Part shown: piece after piece, positions 57,403-64,000 of the stretch
Position numbering within the stretch: the first letter of the stretch is position 1
Layout of the letters: each line of letters starts with the position of its first letter
Origin: Tolypothrix sp. PCC 7910
GTDB taxonomy: Bacteria; Cyanobacteriota; Cyanobacteriia; Cyanobacteriales; Nostocaceae
Assembly (NCBI RefSeq): GCF_011769525.1
Contig: NZ_CP050440.1
Location: 1,861,501-1,925,500, forward strand
DNA: 64,000 bases
Direction of reading: 5' to 3'
The notes under the pieces: generated by a model
The model's input: only the letters and a program-made list of their open reading frames with translations
What the model was told of the DNA's origin: nothing
Database searches by the model: none
Program-made: the position numbers and the translations under genes

Positions 57403-60285
57403 TCAATGAACCACTAAAGGTAACAATAACCGGCTGACTACTCGGCGATCGGGTAATTGATAAATGTGCAACTCTCCTTGGATTTGCTGCATGATATTTT
57501 GGCAGATGAGTAGATGCAAACCAGGTGCTTGACCTAAAGCTGAAATAGCCAGCAAATCCTTGGGTATATCTTGATTAAGTTCTGCTAATAGTTGTGCCTC
57601 AATTTCACCGTTATCTGTAATCGAAATGTCTAAAGTACGTTGATCGACGCGGCGACACCAAATATCAATTCTGCCGCCAGATGCAGTACGATTACAGGCT
57701 GTAACCAACAATTCATGCAGCACCATTTCTATTTTGGCAATATCACCAGCGATCGCCATTGTGGATAAATTTGCAGAATTTTGAGTACTGTTAAATTCGC
57801 CAGTACTTTTAGTTGCATCCTGGGTTGTCTCTGATTGTCCCAAACCATGTACGCCTATCCATAGCTTGTGTTGTTGGCGTAAATTCTCTACTCTTTCCAT
57901 TGCGCGCTTGAGTAAAGTAGCTATAGGCATGGTTTCCCATTTAATCTGCAATTGCCATTGCTCAAGTTTTAGCAGTTCTGTAATTGAGGCTGTTGTCTGC
58001 TCAAAATGCCGGACTGTTGGCTTAGAGCGAATTTGCGTCATTTCCTGAGCCGGAATGCCCAAATCATGTAGTTGAGAAATTAATTGCGTTGCAGCTCTTT
58101 GAATTTCCTCTAAACGGCGATGCTTATACCAATTGAGTTGGTTTAAGTCTTGGTTTTTAGAATCTAAAAGTTGGCTGATGCGTTTTTGCCGATGGAACCA
58201 AGCTAATTGATAAACAAGAGTTTCCGCTGCACTTAGGCTTTGCTGTGACCAATAACGCTCGTGATGGTCTGCTAATAACACTACACTTGTAGGTTGATAA
58301 GCATCTGCAGTCCGCAAAACCATCACTAAGATTTGTCCAATATCAGGGCCGTTTAACCATTTTCTCGTTTGTGCAGGTAAATCATCTATGGTAACGCTGA
58401 GGTGAGCTGCTTGCGCCAAAGCCCACTGAATCACAGCTTCACTTTGAAGGAATACAGGTGCATCAACAACAATCTCAAATCCTTCATTAATTACCCCAGG
58501 AATAATTTCTACTCGCTCCTTGCCAGCAGACCAAGATAGCATGATTGCCAGAGGACAACCGAGAACAGAAGCAATGTGTTGCAGTGCTGTACGTTCTAAA
58601 TGATTTTCTTCTACTTCAGAGATGTGACTTTGAGTTTGTGCCAGAATCAGCAAGGATTGCTGAAAGCTTTGTAAAATTGTTTTTTGCTGCTCGTTATTAT
58701 CTTGTAGCTGCCACTGGCGGATAATTACACCTATTTGTTGGCTGATGCTCCAGAGCAGTTCTTTTTCTAAAGTTGTCCACGTGCGATGGCTTTCATGAGC
58801 AATCACTACAATTGCTGTAGGTGAATTACCTTGAGCACAGTTGCAAACTAACAGAGAATGTACATCATTCTCGCTTAAGAAGGGTCGCCAATTAAAAAAG
58901 CGCAAATCTTCGTCTAGATTCTCAATTTCTACTGCTTCCGTTGCCCGTTGCAATAGTTGTCTATCTAAGTCTTTGAGGGCTTGCAGGGTAAATTTTAAAG
59001 GTCGGCGATTTTGCTGTTGGCTTTGGTGAACAATTTGATAATGATTTTGATCCGGGTCGTAGCGCAACAATAAAAAGCGGCTAGTAGCGAGCCTATCTAA
59101 AACTCTTTGAGCGCAAATGCGTAAAGTTTCATGAAGGTCATGTTCGCTATAGATAGCTTGGGCAATTTGGCTAGTTAACTGAGCATCCTCTTGAATTTGT
59201 TTGATGGTGGTTTCCATGCTTTCAGTAGGAGCCAGTAGCGAAATTAATCCCGCCGCACCTTGGACAAAATTCTTGTCCGCATCTGTCCAAATCCGAGCTT
59301 GATTACCTTCTACTGCCAGAAAACCTAGCAAATCTTTATAGCAAATAATGGGAGCTGCCAAAAGCGATCGCACTCGCAGGCGTTGCAGTAACTTGCCAGT
59401 AAAATGCGTATTTAGGGAACTCCGGGATTCACCAATCCAGACAATTTGGTTGACCGATAAAGCATAATAAAATTCGCTCAAGTCTTGAATGGGAATTTTT
59501 ACTGCTGGTTGCTGGGGAGTAAAATTGCGACTGCTGGGGGAAACCTGATTGCTCATGCGACACCAAAAGTAGCGTCCTTCTCTCTCAAACCAGTAAATAC
59601 TTGTACGGGATGGGGCGACGAATTCTTGGGTGGCTTCTACTACTGCTTCTAGCCTTTGTTCTAGGTTACTGAGGAGGCGTAAACTTTCCAGCAATTGCAA
59701 TAACGGCTTTTCAGCGTGTTTGGTTTGCTGTTGCTGTAAATCCATCTCATATTGATAAAGTACTGCCCCTAATTCGGCTAAAACAACTAATAGTCTGGCT
59801 TTGGCTTCTCCAGATAGTAAGTAACCCCATTTTTTAGAACCTAGCAATACCACACCCATGCAGCGATCGCGATAGCGTAGCGGTAAAATCACTGTGCCTT
59901 GAATGTGGAATTTTTTAGCTATTTCTTGCAATGTTTCTGAGCGGTTTTCACCTTGTAAATCAGCTATACCTAAGGGACGCTGTTCAATTACTACTTGCTC
60001 TAATAAATCTCCTGGGCTAAGAGCTAGCTTTTGATATAAAAAATTACCGTCTCTAGTAGGTAAAATGCCACCTTTACCAAACAATTTATGATTTAGGCGA
60101 TCGTAAAGTGCAATCCACACTACTTCGTAAGCAAACTGCTCTTTAATATAAGAAATAGTAATTTCAATCAGATTTTCAAGATTATTTTCTTCCCGGAGTT
60201 GTTGCAGGACTCGCCCCAAGGAAAAAATCTGTTTTTCAGCAGCTGTAGGTTTTTCTGGCGGCCCCATCTGATTATTGGTCAACAT
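57403..60285 (-). CDS. Multi-GAF sensor with histidine-kinase-like ATPase domain
   Basis: A 960-residue cytosolic sensor with no membrane helix. There are at least three and probably four GAF domains (about 30-190, 210-365, 375-545, 555-710), then a helical stretch with NWYKHRRLEEIQR as a possible phospho-acceptor His. A HATPase_c domain follows (about 850-955): N box reading ELLVTACNRT, G1 SITDNGE, G2 QAPGLHLLICQ. The N and G boxes are weak, so it may be a poor or regulatory kinase. No chromophore-binding Cys is obvious in the GAF cores. The partner regulator is not local. Confidence 0.8.
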   Translation of the reverse strand: MLTNNQMGPPEKPTAAEKQIFSLGRVLQQLREENNLENLIEITISYIKEQFAYEVVWIALYDRLNHKLFGKGGILPTRDGNFLYQKLALSPGDLLEQVVIEQRPLGIADLQGENRSETLQEIAKKFHIQGTVILPLRYRDRCMGVVLLGSKKWGYLLSGEAKARLLVVLAELGAVLYQYEMDLQQQQTKHAEKPLLQLLESLRLLSNLEQRLEAVVEATQEFVAPSRTSIYWFEREGRYFWCRMSNQVSPSSRNFTPQQPAVKIPIQDLSEFYYALSVNQIVWIGESRSSLNTHFTGKLLQRLRVRSLLAAPIICYKDLLGFLAVEGNQARIWTDADKNFVQGAAGLISLLAPTESMETTIKQIQEDAQLTSQIAQAIYSEHDLHETLRICAQRVLDRLATSRFLLLRYDPDQNHYQIVHQSQQQNRRPLKFTLQALKDLDRQLLQRATEAVEIENLDEDLRFFNWRPFLSENDVHSLLVCNCAQGNSPTAIVVIAHESHRTWTTLEKELLWSISQQIGVIIRQWQLQDNNEQQKTILQSFQQSLLILAQTQSHISEVEENHLERTALQHIASVLGCPLAIMLSWSAGKERVEIIPGVINEGFEIVVDAPVFLQSEAVIQWALAQAAHLSVTIDDLPAQTRKWLNGPDIGQILVMVLRTADAYQPTSVVLLADHHERYWSQQSLSAAETLVYQLAWFHRQKRISQLLDSKNQDLNQLNWYKHRRLEEIQRAATQLISQLHDLGIPAQEMTQIRSKPTVRHFEQTTASITELLKLEQWQLQIKWETMPIATLLKRAMERVENLRQQHKLWIGVHGLGQSETTQDATKSTGEFNSTQNSANLSTMAIAGDIAKIEMVLHELLVTACNRTASGGRIDIWCRRVDQRTLDISITDNGEIEAQLLAELNQDIPKDLLAISALGQAPGLHLLICQNIMQQIQGELHIYQLPDRRVVSRLLLPLVVH

Positions 60286-60428
60286 TGCTTTAATATATAA
60301 AATGCCCAGAAAAGCACCCTGAAACTCAGTTGCGTTTAAAAATAGCAGCTAACAATAGATAGGAGAATGCGGAAAGTTATTTTCTGTTGAAATCTCAAAT
60401 CCTATTTTTCCTCGCAACCCTGAATGGA

Positions 60429-61571
60429 ATGGATATTTATCAACTAGCACTTCGTCCACTCTTGTTTAATCTGCTGAAAACAGATCCGGAGTGGTTACAT
60501 GAACAGGCTGTTCACACTCTCGATTGGCTCTCTCAAACCAACGATCGCCAACCTGCTAAATTGCTGAATAACGTTCTGACGCAGTCATTGTGCTTACAAG
60601 ACTCACGTCTAGAACAAACTCTGTTTGGCCTCCACTTTCCCAACCCTCTGGGTTTAGCAGCAGGGTTTGATAAGAATGGCATAGCTGCCAATATTTGGTC
60701 AAGTTTTGGCTTTGGTTTTGCAGAATTGGGAACTGTAACATTTGTTCCTCAACCCGGAAATCCTCGTCCCCGCTTGTTTCGCTTACCCTCAGACAAAGCT
60801 GTTCTTAACCGGATGGGCTTTAATAATGATGGTGCAGCAGCAATGGCAGCAAGGCTAAAACAAGGGCAACAAGAACTTAACTTGCATATCCCCATCGGTA
60901 TTAATTTAGGCAAGTCCAAGGTAACACCCTTAGAAGCATCTGCCAACGATTACCTCAATAGTTTTCGTTTACTCAAAGACTTAGGAGACTATTTTGTAGT
61001 CAACGTATCTTCTCCAAATACCCCTGGTTTGCGATCGCTCCAAGATGCAACCATGCTTGGCGCAATCTTAGATTTATTACAACAAGAGAATAAAACACAA
61101 AAGCCGCTATTTGTCAAGATAGCACCTGATTTAGAATGGGAAGCGATCGCCGATATTATTGCCTTAGCCAATACCTACCAATTGGCGGGGTTAATTGCCA
61201 CTAACACCACTATCCGCCGAGATATCCTGAAAACTCAGATCATTGAAAAAACTGGCAACCCTGTAACTGAAGAAGCAGGTGGAATTAGTGGCGCACCATT
61301 ATGCGATCGCTCCACTGAAGTCATTCGTTTTATTTGGCAGCACACCCAAGGACAATTACCCATAATCGGCGTTGGTGGCATCTTTACCCCTGAAGATGCT
61401 TGGGAAAAAATTACTGCTGGTGCAAGCCTGATTCAAGTTTATACAGGCTGGATTTATGAAGGGCCATTGATGGTACGCCGCATTCTCAAAGGATTACTTT
61501 CCAAGTTAGAACAAAGTGGATTAACTTCCATCAATGCAGCTATCGGTTTAGAAGCAAAAGTGAAAAATTAA
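60429..61571 (+). CDS. pyrD: Dihydroorotate dehydrogenase (quinone), class 2
   Basis: A 380-residue membrane-associated flavoenzyme of pyrimidine synthesis. The amphipathic N-terminus ([15 protein letters not shown]) is the class 2 membrane contact. FMN and substrate motifs: [38 protein letters not shown] with the catalytic Ser, ATNTT and [11 protein letters not shown] use ATG 60429; TTG 60387 only adds a non-conserved lead. Confidence 0.95.
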
Positions 61572-61598
61572 CAACAGTTATTTTTGAATCAGTTCTCA

Positions 61599-61634
61599 AA
61601 GTTTGAGTTGGGATTAAGACCTCAACTCAAACTT
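61599..61634. terminator. Hairpin between convergent pyrD and membrane-HTH gene
   Basis: AAGTTTGAGTTG (61599-61610) and CAACTCAAACTT (61623-61634) form a perfect 12-bp stem with a 12-base loop. No T-run follows, so it may work as a bidirectional stop or an RNA stabiliser. Confidence 0.55.
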
Positions 61635-61757
61635 AAGATTGGGAGAAATGAGGGTATTTGACTAACAAATGCAAAAATCCTCAATGTTCACTGTTGACTG
61701 ATTGTTGATTATTTTGTCTTGGCAAAAGCCTGGCAAAATAGGAGAGATTTTTTAGCT

Positions 61758-62498
61758 TTAAGCCTTATCTTCCAAGGGGAAAAACTCTTTGGTTTTTCGG
61801 GAAAATGACCAGGCAATACCATCAGGATCGCGGCTACGGCTCCATTCTGGAAAATCAGGATCATTTCTCCGTTTATATACTGTACTGGAATAAACATTGA
61901 GACGTTTAGCTAGTTCTGATTGAATCAGAGAACCAAACACTAATTGTTTTTCCAATGGTATTGTTGGCTCTTCATGGGTTGCTGGTGGCAATAATTCATC
62001 CTCTGTCTCTTCCTCCTGCTGTTCCTGTGCTGGTGGTGGTTCCAGTAACATTTGAGCAGTTTGGACAATTGGTTGTGGAGGAAGTTCTTTTACAGGCGGT
62101 TCACTACTTTCGAGTATGCTTCCCAAGATGGTGGCATTAATAAAGTAATAAACCGGACTTTCATCTTCAGAATTCAGAATACTGGCACCAAATTCATTGG
62201 CTTTAGTATCAAGGTAGCGTTTGGCTTGGGAGCCAGAAAAATTACCCTTGATTGCCAAGTCCATTGGTGTGACTTTACCCTGAGTTTCCAGAACCAGGCG
62301 ATTGAAAATAGGATTAACTTGCTGGCACCATTTTTGCCATTGAATACGCTGCCAAGTATTGAAAGCAAAAATCACTAGCATAAAAGCCAGCAAAATTTTC
62401 CAGGTGGAAACCAGGAAAATAATCAGAAACGAAATCGGCAAAAGCAGAACGAGAAAAGCCTTCCCGTTGCCTTCTAATGTGTTTTCACTCATGCTCAT
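61758..62498 (-). CDS. Membrane protein with HTH-like C-terminus (unknown)
   Basis: A 246-residue protein (from ATG 62498; ATG 62492 is also possible, TTG 62507 rejected). Two close transmembrane helices lie at about 14-46. A cytosolic part follows with FSGSQAKRYLDTKANEFGA, then an acidic Pro/Gln/Glu-rich linker (about 135-180). The C-terminal 70 residues read like a small DNA-binding domain (IQSELAKRLNVYSSTVYKRRN then WSRSRDPDGIAW). A membrane-tethered regulator is possible. No named family is recognised. Confidence 0.6.
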   Translation of the reverse strand: MSMSENTLEGNGKAFLVLLLPISFLIIFLVSTWKILLAFMLVIFAFNTWQRIQWQKWCQQVNPIFNRLVLETQGKVTPMDLAIKGNFSGSQAKRYLDTKANEFGASILNSEDESPVYYFINATILGSILESSEPPVKELPPQPIVQTAQMLLEPPPAQEQQEEETEDELLPPATHEEPTIPLEKQLVFGSLIQSELAKRLNVYSSTVYKRRNDPDFPEWSRSRDPDGIAWSFSRKTKEFFPLEDKA

Positions 62499-62507
62499 GG
62501 CCGCCAA

Positions 62508-62856
62508 GTGAATTGTTAGGAAAGAAATAATTATTATCTTGGCAAAAATTGTGACATTTTTTTGTATCTTTTGGCAAATTTGTTGGAAAAATATAACATC
62601 AGTGATTCTTATACACTGTACATAGCCTCAAGATTCTGCAAAAATTTGAGCTTGAATTGCCCGTATTGCAAAGCTTTTGTCAGGAAAATCTATTTTTGCC
62701 AAACTCTTTTCACAGGCAAAACCTATAAATTTAAGTATTAAATAATACTTTTATTCGGCAAACACCCAATTCTCAAAATAAACACTTGACATTTTGTATT
62801 ACGCGTACTACATTAAGAATACAAGGCGATGTTCCAAAAGGAGTAAGCTTTCAACC
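62508..62856. other. Leader region of the tRNA-like array
   Basis: About 350 AT-rich bases without a gene. The right half carries the promoter listed at 62786. Confidence 0.6.
62786..62814 (+). promoter_or_regulatory. Sigma70-type promoter of the tRNA-like array
   Basis: TTGACA (62786-62791), 17-base spacer, TACATT (62809-62814), with the expected start near 62821, about 36 bases before the first tRNA-like unit. The -35 is a perfect consensus and the -10 matches 4 of 6. Confidence 0.65.
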
Positions 62857-62991
62857 GTAGCGGATAGCTCAAATACCAGAGCGCCCACCTTGCCCGCAAG
62901 GGCCGACATATCAAGGGTTACCGCAAATAACAGAAAACATCCTTGATGCTAATTCTGGAGGTGCAGGTGAAAATCCTGCTCCGCTACACCA
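62857..62991 (+). tRNA. tRNA-like gene 1 with rearranged anticodon region
   Basis: GTAGCGGA/TCCGCTAC makes an 8-bp acceptor stem followed by A and CCA. D arm GCTC/GAGC and T stem GCAGG/CCTGC are present. The D loop (AAATACCA) lacks the usual GG and the T loop (TGAAAAT) lacks the TTC motif, so tertiary contacts would be abnormal. CAGAA/TTCTG could form an anticodon stem ending in GCTAA, i.e. a Ser(GCU)-type loop. The shared insert hairpin and its GGGTTA strand precede this stem, and the insert's 5' strand (ATCCTTGAT) sits inside the loop, the reverse of the other units. It may be a tRNA pseudogene or a structured RNA. Confidence 0.6.
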
Positions 62992-63045
62992 AATAAATTT
63001 GAGATTTAATCAAAAATCTCAAATCCAAAATCTAAAATTCTTCAT

Positions 63046-63170
63046 GTGGCGGGTAGCTCAGTGGTAGAGCGCTAAACATCCTTTTTCACCCCTTGCCTGC
63101 AAAGGCCGACGAATGAGGGTTATCGATTGGGTTCGAGAGGTCGCAGGTTCAATTCCTGCCCCGCCACCCA
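63046..63170 (+). tRNA. tRNA-like gene 2, Pro-type anticodon, with insert
   Basis: The acceptor TGGCGGG/CCCGCCA can be extended by G63046 and C63167; CCA is encoded. D arm GCTC-GAGC with GTGGT, T arm GCAGG-TTCAATT-CCTGC: all normal. Removing 63074-63123 leaves stem CTCGA/TCGAG and a loop containing TTGGGT (UGG or GGG, both Pro); the loop is one base short of seven, so boundaries may be off by one. Confidence 0.75.
63074..63123 (+). other. Structured insert in tRNA-like gene 2
   Basis: 50 nt between tRNA positions 28 and 29. It has the outer strand ATCCTT, inner hairpin TTGCC-TGCAAA-GGC, CGA, and outer strand GAGGGT. Confidence 0.75.
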
Positions 63171-63266
63171 AAATCTCATACTAATTTGAAAAAATAATTC
63201 AACAGATATTCGTAGGGGTGGGGTCTATCCGCCTTGACGACAATCCATATAGTTTTAAATTTTCAT

Positions 63267-63393
63267 GTGGTGGGTAGCCAAGTGGTAAGGCGCTTAACAC
63301 CCTTGTTCATCTCTTGCCTGCAAAGGCCGAAGAATTGAGGGTTATCGTTTGCAAAACGAGCATCGCGGGTTCGAGTCCCGCCCCACTACACCA
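63267..63393 (+). tRNA. tRNA-like gene 3, Cys (GCA), with insert
   Basis: The 8-bp acceptor GTGGTGGG/CCCACTAC (one G-T pair) is followed by A and CCA. D arm GCC-GGC, T arm GCGGG-TTCGAGT-CCCGC. Taking out 63295-63345 joins G-CT to CGT and gives a perfect anticodon stem CTCGT/ACGAG with a 7-base loop TTGCAAA: anticodon GCA, Cys. This unit gives the clearest evidence for the insert boundaries. Confidence 0.8.
63295..63345 (+). other. Structured insert in tRNA-like gene 3
   Basis: 51 nt between positions 28 and 29. Outer strand ACCCTT pairs with GAGGGT; compared with units 2 and 6 the U-G pair is replaced by C-G, a compensatory change. Confidence 0.78.
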
Positions 63394-63439
63394 AATTACA
63401 GTTATGTGGCGGATGGCGAAATTGGAAAACGCACTTGAC

Positions 63440-63492
63440 AAAAAACCTTAATTTATCACCTTGCCCGAAAGGGCCGAAGAGTTGAGGGTTAT
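63440..63492 (+). other. Structured insert in tRNA-like gene 4
   Basis: About 53 nt, left border uncertain by 1-2 bases in an A-run. Inner hairpin TTGCCC-GAAA-GGGC, outer strands AACCTT and GAGGGTT. Confidence 0.65.
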
Positions 63493-63523
63493 CGTAATCT
63501 AGCAACCGCAAGGTTTTGCAGGT

Positions 63524-63595
63524 ACCCTACCCTTTGGGAACGGCTTCGCCGAACGGGAAGCCGCTTCTCTACGAGACGCTACGCGAATGCGTCTA
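63524..63595. repeat. Palindromic repeat inserted in the T loop of gene 4
   Basis: About 72 bases with GGCTTCGCCGAACGGG, AAGCCGCTTC and GAGACGCTACGCGAATGCG, nested palindromes typical of Nostoc interspersed repeats. It sits exactly between the two T-stem arms. Confidence 0.75.
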
Positions 63596-63648
63596 CAAGT
63601 CCTGCTCCGCCACACCTAAACTTAATTTTGAATTTTGAATTGTGACGT

Positions 63649-63790
63649 GGGTGTGTAGCTCAACTGGATAGAGCAATGAACGGGTTAATCACCCATAGTC
63701 CTTGGTTCACAAACTTGCCTGAAAAGGCCGACGAGTCGAGGGTTATCGTCAATTCATCGGTTGTAGGTTCAAATCCTACCTCACCCGCCA
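63649..63790 (+). tRNA. tRNA-like gene 5, Asp-type (GUC), with longer insert
   Basis: GGGTGTG/CTCACCC acceptor (one T-T mismatch), G73 and encoded CCA, D arm GCTC-GAGC with TGG, T arm GTAGG-TTCAAAT-CCTAC. The anticodon stem ATGAA/TTCAT is complete on both sides. Removing 63682-63746 leaves a 7-base loop CCGTCAA, reading GUC (Asp) but with C instead of U at position 33. Unlike units 2, 3 and 6 the insert is in the loop (between 32 and 33). Confidence 0.72.
63682..63746 (+). other. Structured insert in tRNA-like gene 5
   Basis: 65 nt. It has an extra 5' hairpin (GGGT-TAATC-ACCC), then the shared core; outer helix GTCCTTGG/TCGAGGGT is longer than in the other units. Confidence 0.72.
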
Positions 63791-63811
63791 AAATCTAATT
63801 TTGAATTTTGC

Positions 63812-63861
63812 GGAAAGTTGCGTGCGGGGGTTCCCCCCGTTGAGCAAACTTTCCAAGACGA
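63812..63861. repeat. Dispersed inverted repeat, copy 2 (first copy at 19261)
   Basis: GGAAAGTTGCGTG, inner CGGGGG-TT-CCCCCG, then GAGCAAACTTTCC and AAGACG. It lies between tRNA-like genes 5 and 6. Confidence 0.7.
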
Positions 63862-63876
63862 ATTTTGAATTGTTAT

Positions 63877-64000
63877 GTGGCAGGTAGCTCAGTGGTAGAG
63901 CGCCTAAAACATCCTTGTTCACTCCTTGCCTGCAAAGGCCGAAGAATGAGGGTTATCGCCTTCCAAGCGGGATGTCGCAGGTTCAAATCCTGCCCTGCCA
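63877..64000 (+). tRNA. tRNA-like gene 6, Gly (UCC), with insert, cut by window end
   Basis: TGGCAGG/CCTGCCA acceptor, D arm GCTC-GAGC with GTGGT, T arm GCAGG-TTCAAAT-CCTGC. Removing 63905-63956 joins G-CC to CGC and gives a perfect stem CCCGC/GCGGG with a 7-base loop CTTCCAA: anticodon UCC, Gly. The discriminator and CCA lie beyond the window, and the array probably continues. Confidence 0.8.
63905..63956 (+). other. Structured insert in tRNA-like gene 6
   Basis: 52 nt between positions 28 and 29; outer strands ATCCTT/GAGGGT, inner hairpin TTGCC-TGCAAA-GGC then CGAAGAA. Confidence 0.78.

Follow-up and report, generated by a model that had tools for sequence, protein, structure and literature searches.

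The window analysed here is a stretch of 64,000 nucleotides from Tolypothrix sp. PCC 7910 (G000:C1:1861501-1925500, in a genome of 8.76 Mb and 7 contigs), and its final part carries a tandem array of six tRNA-like units that share a small structured element, which we call the Y module. All six units lie on the forward strand where a preliminary description of the sequence had placed them (62857..64000), and the array stops exactly at the window edge, where the 3' acceptor strand of unit 6 has its final base. A likely promoter, TTGACA and TACATT separated by a 17-nt spacer (62786..62814, forward strand), precedes the array; its assignment rests on sequence and on recurrence in relatives, with a TTGAC...TACATT block preceding the first unit extracted in 10 of the 20 loci inspected, the window's own locus included, and a looser variant, TTGAC...TACAAT, in L082. 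The gene for a Ro60 protein of 534 amino acids begins on the same strand 38 bases past the array end (ATG at what would be window position 64039; L031:3540-5144), preceded by a hairpin in its 5' untranslated region (UTR). This gene lies just outside the window, beyond the view on which the preliminary description was based, and our reading of the array changed because it follows.

Three of the units have a simple layout. Units 2, 3 and 6 each read as a normal tRNA through position 28, followed by a junction, the module, and then position 29 and the remaining tRNA. Unit 2 (63047..63166) has a Pro-like anticodon and its module at 63074-63123, between positions 28 and 29; unit 3 (63268..63388) has a tRNA(Cys)-like body and its module at 63295-63345; and unit 6 (63878..64000), the closest to Ro60, has a Gly(UCC) anticodon and its module at 63905-63956. 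The insert lengths given earlier for these units, 50, 51 and 52 nt, proved correct, as did the statement that, in the Cys(GCA) and Gly(UCC) units, removal of the insert leaves a 5-bp anticodon stem and a 7-nt loop. The near-normal arm described for the Pro-like unit 2 holds with a reservation, the anticodon loop having 6 nt after removal, as in L068-L070, and 7 in L071-L073. Within the module, a stem interrupted by an internal loop, in which CUUG faces CGAAG or CGACG, leads to a 4-bp hairpin with a GNRA-like cap and a return strand ending GGGUUAU; the consensus of 52 aligned copies is CUUGCC...GGCCGAAGAAU...GGGUUAUCG, many of them having CGACG. An apparent likeness of GCAAGGCCGA to the Twister-sister ribozyme was dropped, there being no Rfam match and Ro60 explaining the motif.

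The other three units depart from this layout in different ways. Unit 1 (62858..62986) has a sound tRNA-like body (7 of 7 acceptor pairs and 5 of 5 T-stem pairs) and contains the same module parts in a different strand order, at about 62888-62947; a shared insert in the anticodon arm, as originally described, is thus present in the array, but not in that form in unit 1. Unit 4 (63417..63612; Leu-like by eye, module at about 63444-63492) has its T loop split by an insertion of ~70-75 nt (about 63524-63596), and the good acceptor and T stems attributed to every unit do not extend to its T arm, which is not intact. An interruption of this kind is also present in the relative L069, and the T arm is intact in the counterparts of unit 4 in L068, L070 and L071. 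Unit 5 (63649..63786) has an extra hairpin (63682-63694) ahead of its module (about 63697-63746), which accounts for the insert of 65 nt reported for it; this layout recurs in 11 units from 10 loci. The body of unit 3 is nearest to a tRNA-Cys of its own genome (alignment score 36.2), the next match being another tRNA-Cys (25.6). For unit 6 the best scores are those of tRNA-Pro (36.5) and tRNA-Val (36.0), with tRNA-Gly at 30.4, and unit 2 has no clear nearest tRNA (Val and Arg 27.8, Pro 26.0); an attempt to name a parent tRNA for every unit was dropped, the answer being clear for unit 3 only. CCA occurs at most 5 bases past the 7-bp acceptor in units 1, 2, 3 and 5. An eighth acceptor pair is also possible, formed by a G before and a C after the 7-bp stem (62857-62987, 63046-63167, 63267-63389, 63416-63613, and likewise in unit 6); such a pair is unusual among most bacterial tRNAs.

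Standard annotation is poorly matched to these units, which are easily mislabelled because ARAGORN calls none of 75 module-bearing units, the Rfam YrlA model misses all six in the array, and the Rfam tRNA model takes two of them for oversized tRNAs. Specifically, ARAGORN called zero tRNAs in the window, and the Rfam tRNA model, run on 60000-64000, placed units 2 (47.6 bits) and 5 (48 bits) above threshold while leaving 62 and 71 nt in their middle unaligned, and matched unit 6 partly, below threshold. Tandem tRNA genes are familiar in Nostocales, an example being the trn operon of Anabaena PCC 7120 (PMC10272220), and the array resembles them in its clustering. The same Tolypothrix genome has two ordinary tRNA arrays of this kind, in which, unlike in the module-bearing units, ARAGORN reads tRNAs: 24 at L032 (G000:C1:7300.6-7303.2 kb) and 16 at L033 (C2:21.8-23.2 kb).

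We assessed the conservation of pairing in two alignments. A wide pattern gave 76 module copies, of which 53 distinct copies had the common layout, and removal of L087, which has a broken 5' strand, left 52. In these, 96.8% of cells were paired, as compared with at most 66.9% in slid controls, and 4 of 12 pairs changed on both sides. The second alignment (set A5) held 25 whole units in native order, hand-chosen from 33 extracted units with intact acceptor and T stems required; 95.9% of cells were paired, against at most 52.2% when slid, and 20 of 34 pairs changed on both sides, giving 77 both-side-change cells versus 21.2 in shuffled and at most 12 in slid alignments. The acceptor and T stems are 100% paired in these rows because the rows were selected for both stems being intact. 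By contrast, the pairs joining positions 27-28 with 42-43 across the insert, which were not selected for, were kept in 97.9% of cells, one of them being C-G in 14 of the 25 rows and U-A in 9. Thirteen aligned relatives of unit 1 (13 pairs) were 95.2% paired, against at most 68.9% when slid, with 3 pairs changing on both sides. The suggestion that the varying helix of the insert keeps its pairing is therefore borne out by covariation in the 52 modules and the 25 whole units. Single-sequence folding supports the structure less strongly, with z-scores of -4.3, -1.7, -2.1, -3.0, -1.3 and -2.5 for units 1-6.

The module is closely tied to Ro60. The open reading frame (ORF) past the window matches the Pfam families TROVE (1.8e-18) and vWA_Ro60 (3.7e-39) and aligns over most of its length with Deinococcus radiodurans Rsr (2nvo, 7.7e-82) and Xenopus Ro60 (1yvp, 1.1e-72). 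In the alignment, K170, R174 and H187 of Xenopus Ro60, which we take to be Y RNA contacts, are identical in the Tolypothrix protein. By tblastn, 22 of 58 genomes, the window's own counted, contain Ro60, and the module adjoins Ro60 in 21 of the 22 loci scanned, the exception, L088, having a decayed Ro60; within those 21 loci the gene is truncated in L087 and interrupted in L086. Most relatives have a unit placed like unit 6, about 100 nt 5' of Ro60. The preliminary description had proposed searching cyanobacterial genomes with a covariance model of the insert. Our model, R1, built from the 52 module copies and run with stricter large-set filters on 243 genomes of the order, detected the module in 58 genomes, and Ro60 was present in 59: both occurred in 56, Ro60 only in 3 (all fragments), the module only in 2 (G033 and G117) and neither in 182 (Fisher p 9e-49, a nominal value because the genomes are related). 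In the window's own genome there were 5 R1 matches, every one inside the array. As expected of Y RNA genes, then, the units sit next to Ro60, and 56 of the 58 module-bearing genomes also have that gene; the conserved, covarying stem with its CGAAG-type internal loop is a further likeness, to the published motif, which we treat as a lead. On this evidence and that given below we put at roughly 0.87 the probability that the array encodes Y RNAs for the downstream Ro60, with a tRNA shape, a free acceptor and the module set in the anticodon stem.

The Ro60 linkage also bears on the idea that the units are decaying tRNA genes struck by a small mobile element. The insertion that damages unit 4 would fit such decay, but the single insertion site and covarying pairs over many copies, the association with Ro60, and the lack of R1 matches elsewhere in the window's genome all run counter to it, and we regard it as hardly credible.

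Bacterial Y RNAs mimic tRNA but have its strand order circularly permuted, and if the array RNAs are unpermuted relatives of one such family, YrlA, then rotating the units should yield YrlA. According to the literature, the YrlA domain structure 6CU1 can be superposed on tRNAs if a circular permutation is allowed for (PMC11472068), and the basal stem of YrlA binds Rsr (PMC8394870); the array forms, by contrast, need no permutation to fit tRNA. We built covariance model R2 from 25 cyanobacterial units after opening each one at its hairpin loop and joining its ends at the acceptor, and R3 from the same 25 in native order. Against 78 non-cyanobacterial Ro60 loci (73 from a named-genome scan of the best 80 of 172 relatives, 7 of the 80 being cyanobacterial, and 5 phage or plasmid loci), R2 detected YrlA-like Y RNAs adjoining Ro60 in other phyla, the best at 85.5 bits (E 1.9e-18), and R3 reached 96.1 bits (E 2.7e-20). 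In a background of 22 loci with ordinary own-genome tRNAs, R2 scored at most 33.2 bits and R3 at most 55.3 bits. The Rfam YrlA model, below its own cut-off, overlapped the R2 matches in all nine loci checked; at gathering score it gave nothing in 19 loci, and we dropped it as a label in that form and used the weaker matches. It likewise had no match in 60000-64000 at its gathering score of 69 bits, the best in the whole genome being 26.5 bits, at other places. This cut-off appears narrow, because YrlA-like loci of other phyla also score below it.

YrlA (RF02553; Salmonella 6CU1) and the array RNAs thus have in common a tRNA-like part comprising D, T and acceptor arms, a stem of the Ro60-binding type that meets it at the anticodon stem, and a gene position beside Ro60. 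They differ in strand order: in YrlA the acceptor stem is closed and the Y stem open, whereas the array units end at the acceptor and have the Y stem closed by a GNRA-like loop. Consistent with the reversed order, R3 outscored R2 in 12 of the 12 cyanobacterial loci searched with both (for example 141.3 versus 73.3 bits in L168), although three window units and units of L078 and L085 had trained both models. In the array itself, R3 gave 137.4, 124.5 and 150.6 bits for units 2, 3 and 6, which are training rows, and 64 bits for unit 5, which is not; units 1 (48.3 bits) and 4 (41.7 bits) fell inside the ordinary-tRNA range. We conclude that the array RNAs are probably YrlA without the circular permutation.

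The native order is found outside cyanobacteria as well. We took the best match per locus and called a locus permuted if R2 reached 48 bits or more and led R3 by 3 or more, and native if R3 reached 57 bits or more and led R2 by 10 or more. The 78 non-cyanobacterial loci comprised 39 permuted, 14 native, a further native call in L161, 2 ambiguous and 22 uncalled. In 12 of the 14 native loci the R3 match was at most 150 nt long and scored 58-96 bits, as compared with at most 55.3 for ordinary tRNAs. The unrotated model detected this form in Chloroflexota, myxobacteria, Desulfonema and Parabeggiatoa. By eye, L109 (Desulfonema magnum) has several native units and L129 (Parabeggiatoa) has one, the form is present also in L112 (Chloroflexota) and L116 (Polyangium), and L103 (Chloroflexota) has two native units beside a Y-like hairpin in canonical strand order. 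All seven cyanobacterial loci of the named-genome scan were native, with R3 above R2 in each, and Picosynechococcus PCC 7002 has three such units 5' of Ro60 on pAQ7.

We compared these calls, with labels assigned by hand, to a Ro60 protein tree of 71 loci (29 native, 37 permuted and 5 uncalled), made by a quick method with support from the Shimodaira-Hasegawa-like approximate likelihood ratio test (SH-aLRT) only, and with some long branches and a midpoint root for drawing. Native and permuted forms were separated by 3 changes; taken each against all other rows, native required 5 changes and permuted 6, versus 22.6 and 24.0 for shuffled labels. The native form covers all 14 cyanobacterial rows, the myxobacteria, and two groups containing Chloroflexota, Armatimonadota, Desulfonema and Parabeggiatoa; the permuted form is in a group made up mostly of actinobacteria and proteobacteria, in a group of Chloroflexota, Eremiobacterota and WPS-2, and in L158. 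The RNA forms follow the Ro60 tree. On the origin of the Y RNA permutation we tentatively suggest, as a possibility to which we give somewhat less than even odds, that unpermuted tRNA-Y chimeras are ancestral: a Ro60-binding hairpin would have entered the anticodon stem of tRNA genes and spread over tRNA bodies, and YrlA would have been derived at least two times. The recipient bodies would have been several and different, one of them clearly Cys-like, and tandem arrays cut at the hairpins instead of the acceptors would give circularly permuted RNAs with no DNA rearrangement. The tree is compatible with this history, with native forms in cyanobacteria, myxobacteria and two Chloroflexota-rich groups, and permuted forms in two groups and one row, and so is Minicystis (L127), where adjacent matches lie 4 nt apart and can be read in either order; the direction from native to permuted is an inference. 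RNAs with plain tRNA order that bear the Ro60 site of Y RNAs at the matching joint would connect tRNAs with Y RNAs, and the origin of the latter would become testable.

Several observations weigh against the reading of the array as Y RNA genes or against its extension to other phyla. G033 and G117 carry the module with no Ro60. The Rfam YrlA model is silent at the array genes, so that membership in this family stands on the rotated model that we built ourselves. In single-sequence folding, units 2 and 5 are just modestly more stable than shuffles, and their best folds give the long module stem other partners. Among the non-cyanobacterial loci, no form could be assigned for 22 of the 78, the native call in L161 comes from a 47-bit match that is under the tRNA background, and those in L104 and L106 come from matches 185 and 206 nt long. 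The tandem loci L120 and L127 fit both orders. Finally, removal of the insert gave tRNA-like sequences recognised by ARAGORN in 36 of 36 units tried, and the genome encodes a full-length RtcB ligase elsewhere, so that enzymatic splicing cannot be dismissed for want of a ligase.

The last two points, together with the retained pairing of positions 27-28 with 42-43 across the insert, favour the idea first put forward for this sequence, that the inserts are a new class of tiny tRNA introns whose removal yields working tRNAs. In-silico splicing was dropped as proof in either direction, since most units pass ARAGORN at all five cut points. Group I, group II and archaeal introns likewise break up tRNA genes, in many cases within the anticodon arm, but the inserts differ from them in their length of ~50 nt, their site at position 28/29 and their partner gene Ro60; an Rfam search of 60000-64000 at E up to 1 returned no match of the inserts to group I or group II introns or to any other Rfam element. 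The element also goes with Ro60 rather than with tRNAs in general. Moreover, units in L078 (-147), L079 (-748) and L081 (+1690) have no anticodon arm, with 6-9 nt between module and T stem, and this argues against splicing, there being nothing to restore. At the corresponding joint in YrlA-like RNAs the tRNA halves are permuted, and simple splicing could not give a tRNA. The anticodon of the Ro60-adjacent unit drifts, reading TCC in 9 of the 13 loci tried and otherwise CTT, TTT, AAA or unreadable. We consider working tRNAs made by intron removal very unlikely; the inserts are very probably not introns, and the other suggestion in the preliminary description, a permanent enlargement of the anticodon arm, was right in form, whereas the purpose offered for it, resistance to anticodon nucleases, may or may not apply.

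A Y RNA with a free acceptor might have a second function. Such an RNA could serve Ro60 and also be an unspliced, chargeable tRNA-like molecule, for which one could cite the 7-bp acceptors and T arms that are intact in most extracted units (though extraction favoured these), the CCA soon after the acceptor in units 1, 2, 3 and 5, and the recognisable tRNA-Cys body of unit 3. The drift of the anticodon loops, the bodies in some units with no D arm or anticodon arm, and the position of the module in the anticodon stem, where the ribosome and many synthetases bind, argue the other way, and we think this dual role distinctly unlikely. We see as rather unlikely the alternative that tRNA-like bodies with blocked anticodon arms are held by Ro60 as decoys that absorb anticodon nucleases or tRNA fragments under stress. 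A precedent is offered in PMC7790460, where Salmonella YrlA fragments were undetected in nuclease-inducing conditions and the tRNA-like domain was suggested to be a competitive inhibitor; in the Tolypothrix sequence no feature specifically indicates a decoy, no search for a nuclease gene having been made.

If the array encodes Y RNAs, one likely promoter would drive the array and probably Ro60 in a single transcript, from which tRNA-processing enzymes could cut out and trim the units. Ro60 would then grip the module inserted between positions 28 and 29, and the tRNA body may act as a gate or tether on the Ro60 ring, as in known Y RNAs. In Deinococcus the Y RNA tethers PNPase (PMC8394870, PMC8058203). 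The array RNAs share with the Y RNAs of animals and Deinococcus a Ro60 partner and an internal-loop stem resembling the Ro-binding site. This stem may resemble that of human Y1. In the animal and Deinococcus RNAs the ends lie at the Y stem, and a complete tRNA body with a free acceptor is not known among them. The array opens up Ro60 biology in cyanobacteria, and its free acceptor raises the question of whether a Ro60 partner could be processed or charged like a tRNA. In a literature search that did not cover the key Y RNA papers, no cyanobacterial Y RNA or unpermuted tRNA-Y chimera appeared among the matches listed. A 2014 study by Chen reportedly described likely Y RNAs close to Ro60 in over 250 species of bacteria and phages; some array-type loci may be mentioned there, and prior description is possible.

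The hairpin in the Ro60 5' UTR, TTTTTGCCCGYAAGGGCCGGGAG (L031:3509-3532), has a tail that overlaps the likely ribosome-binding site and resembles half of the Ro60-binding module, suggesting possible self-regulation. A like hairpin was seen by eye in 20 of the 22 stretches, the exceptions being L086 and L088, where the start is wrongly set or the gene decayed. Nine relatives (L068, L069, L070, L071, L074, L076, L078, L081 and L084) have a further module unit with no D arm about 1.65-1.73 kb past the Ro60 start; a pattern search of the window's genome found no module unit at the matching spot downstream of Ro60. In two genomes of different families Ro60 is broken near the same residue, about 253 (L086:6640-7507 in G001, and G124:C10:74006-74768). 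The insert in G001, of ~0.87 kb, has no Rfam match and contains, by eye, an HNH-nuclease-like ORF on the opposite strand. One Ro60 relative was present among the viral contigs scanned, and this contig (L175:4781-5991) has six permuted-type, YrlA-like matches in a row at 28-55 bits.

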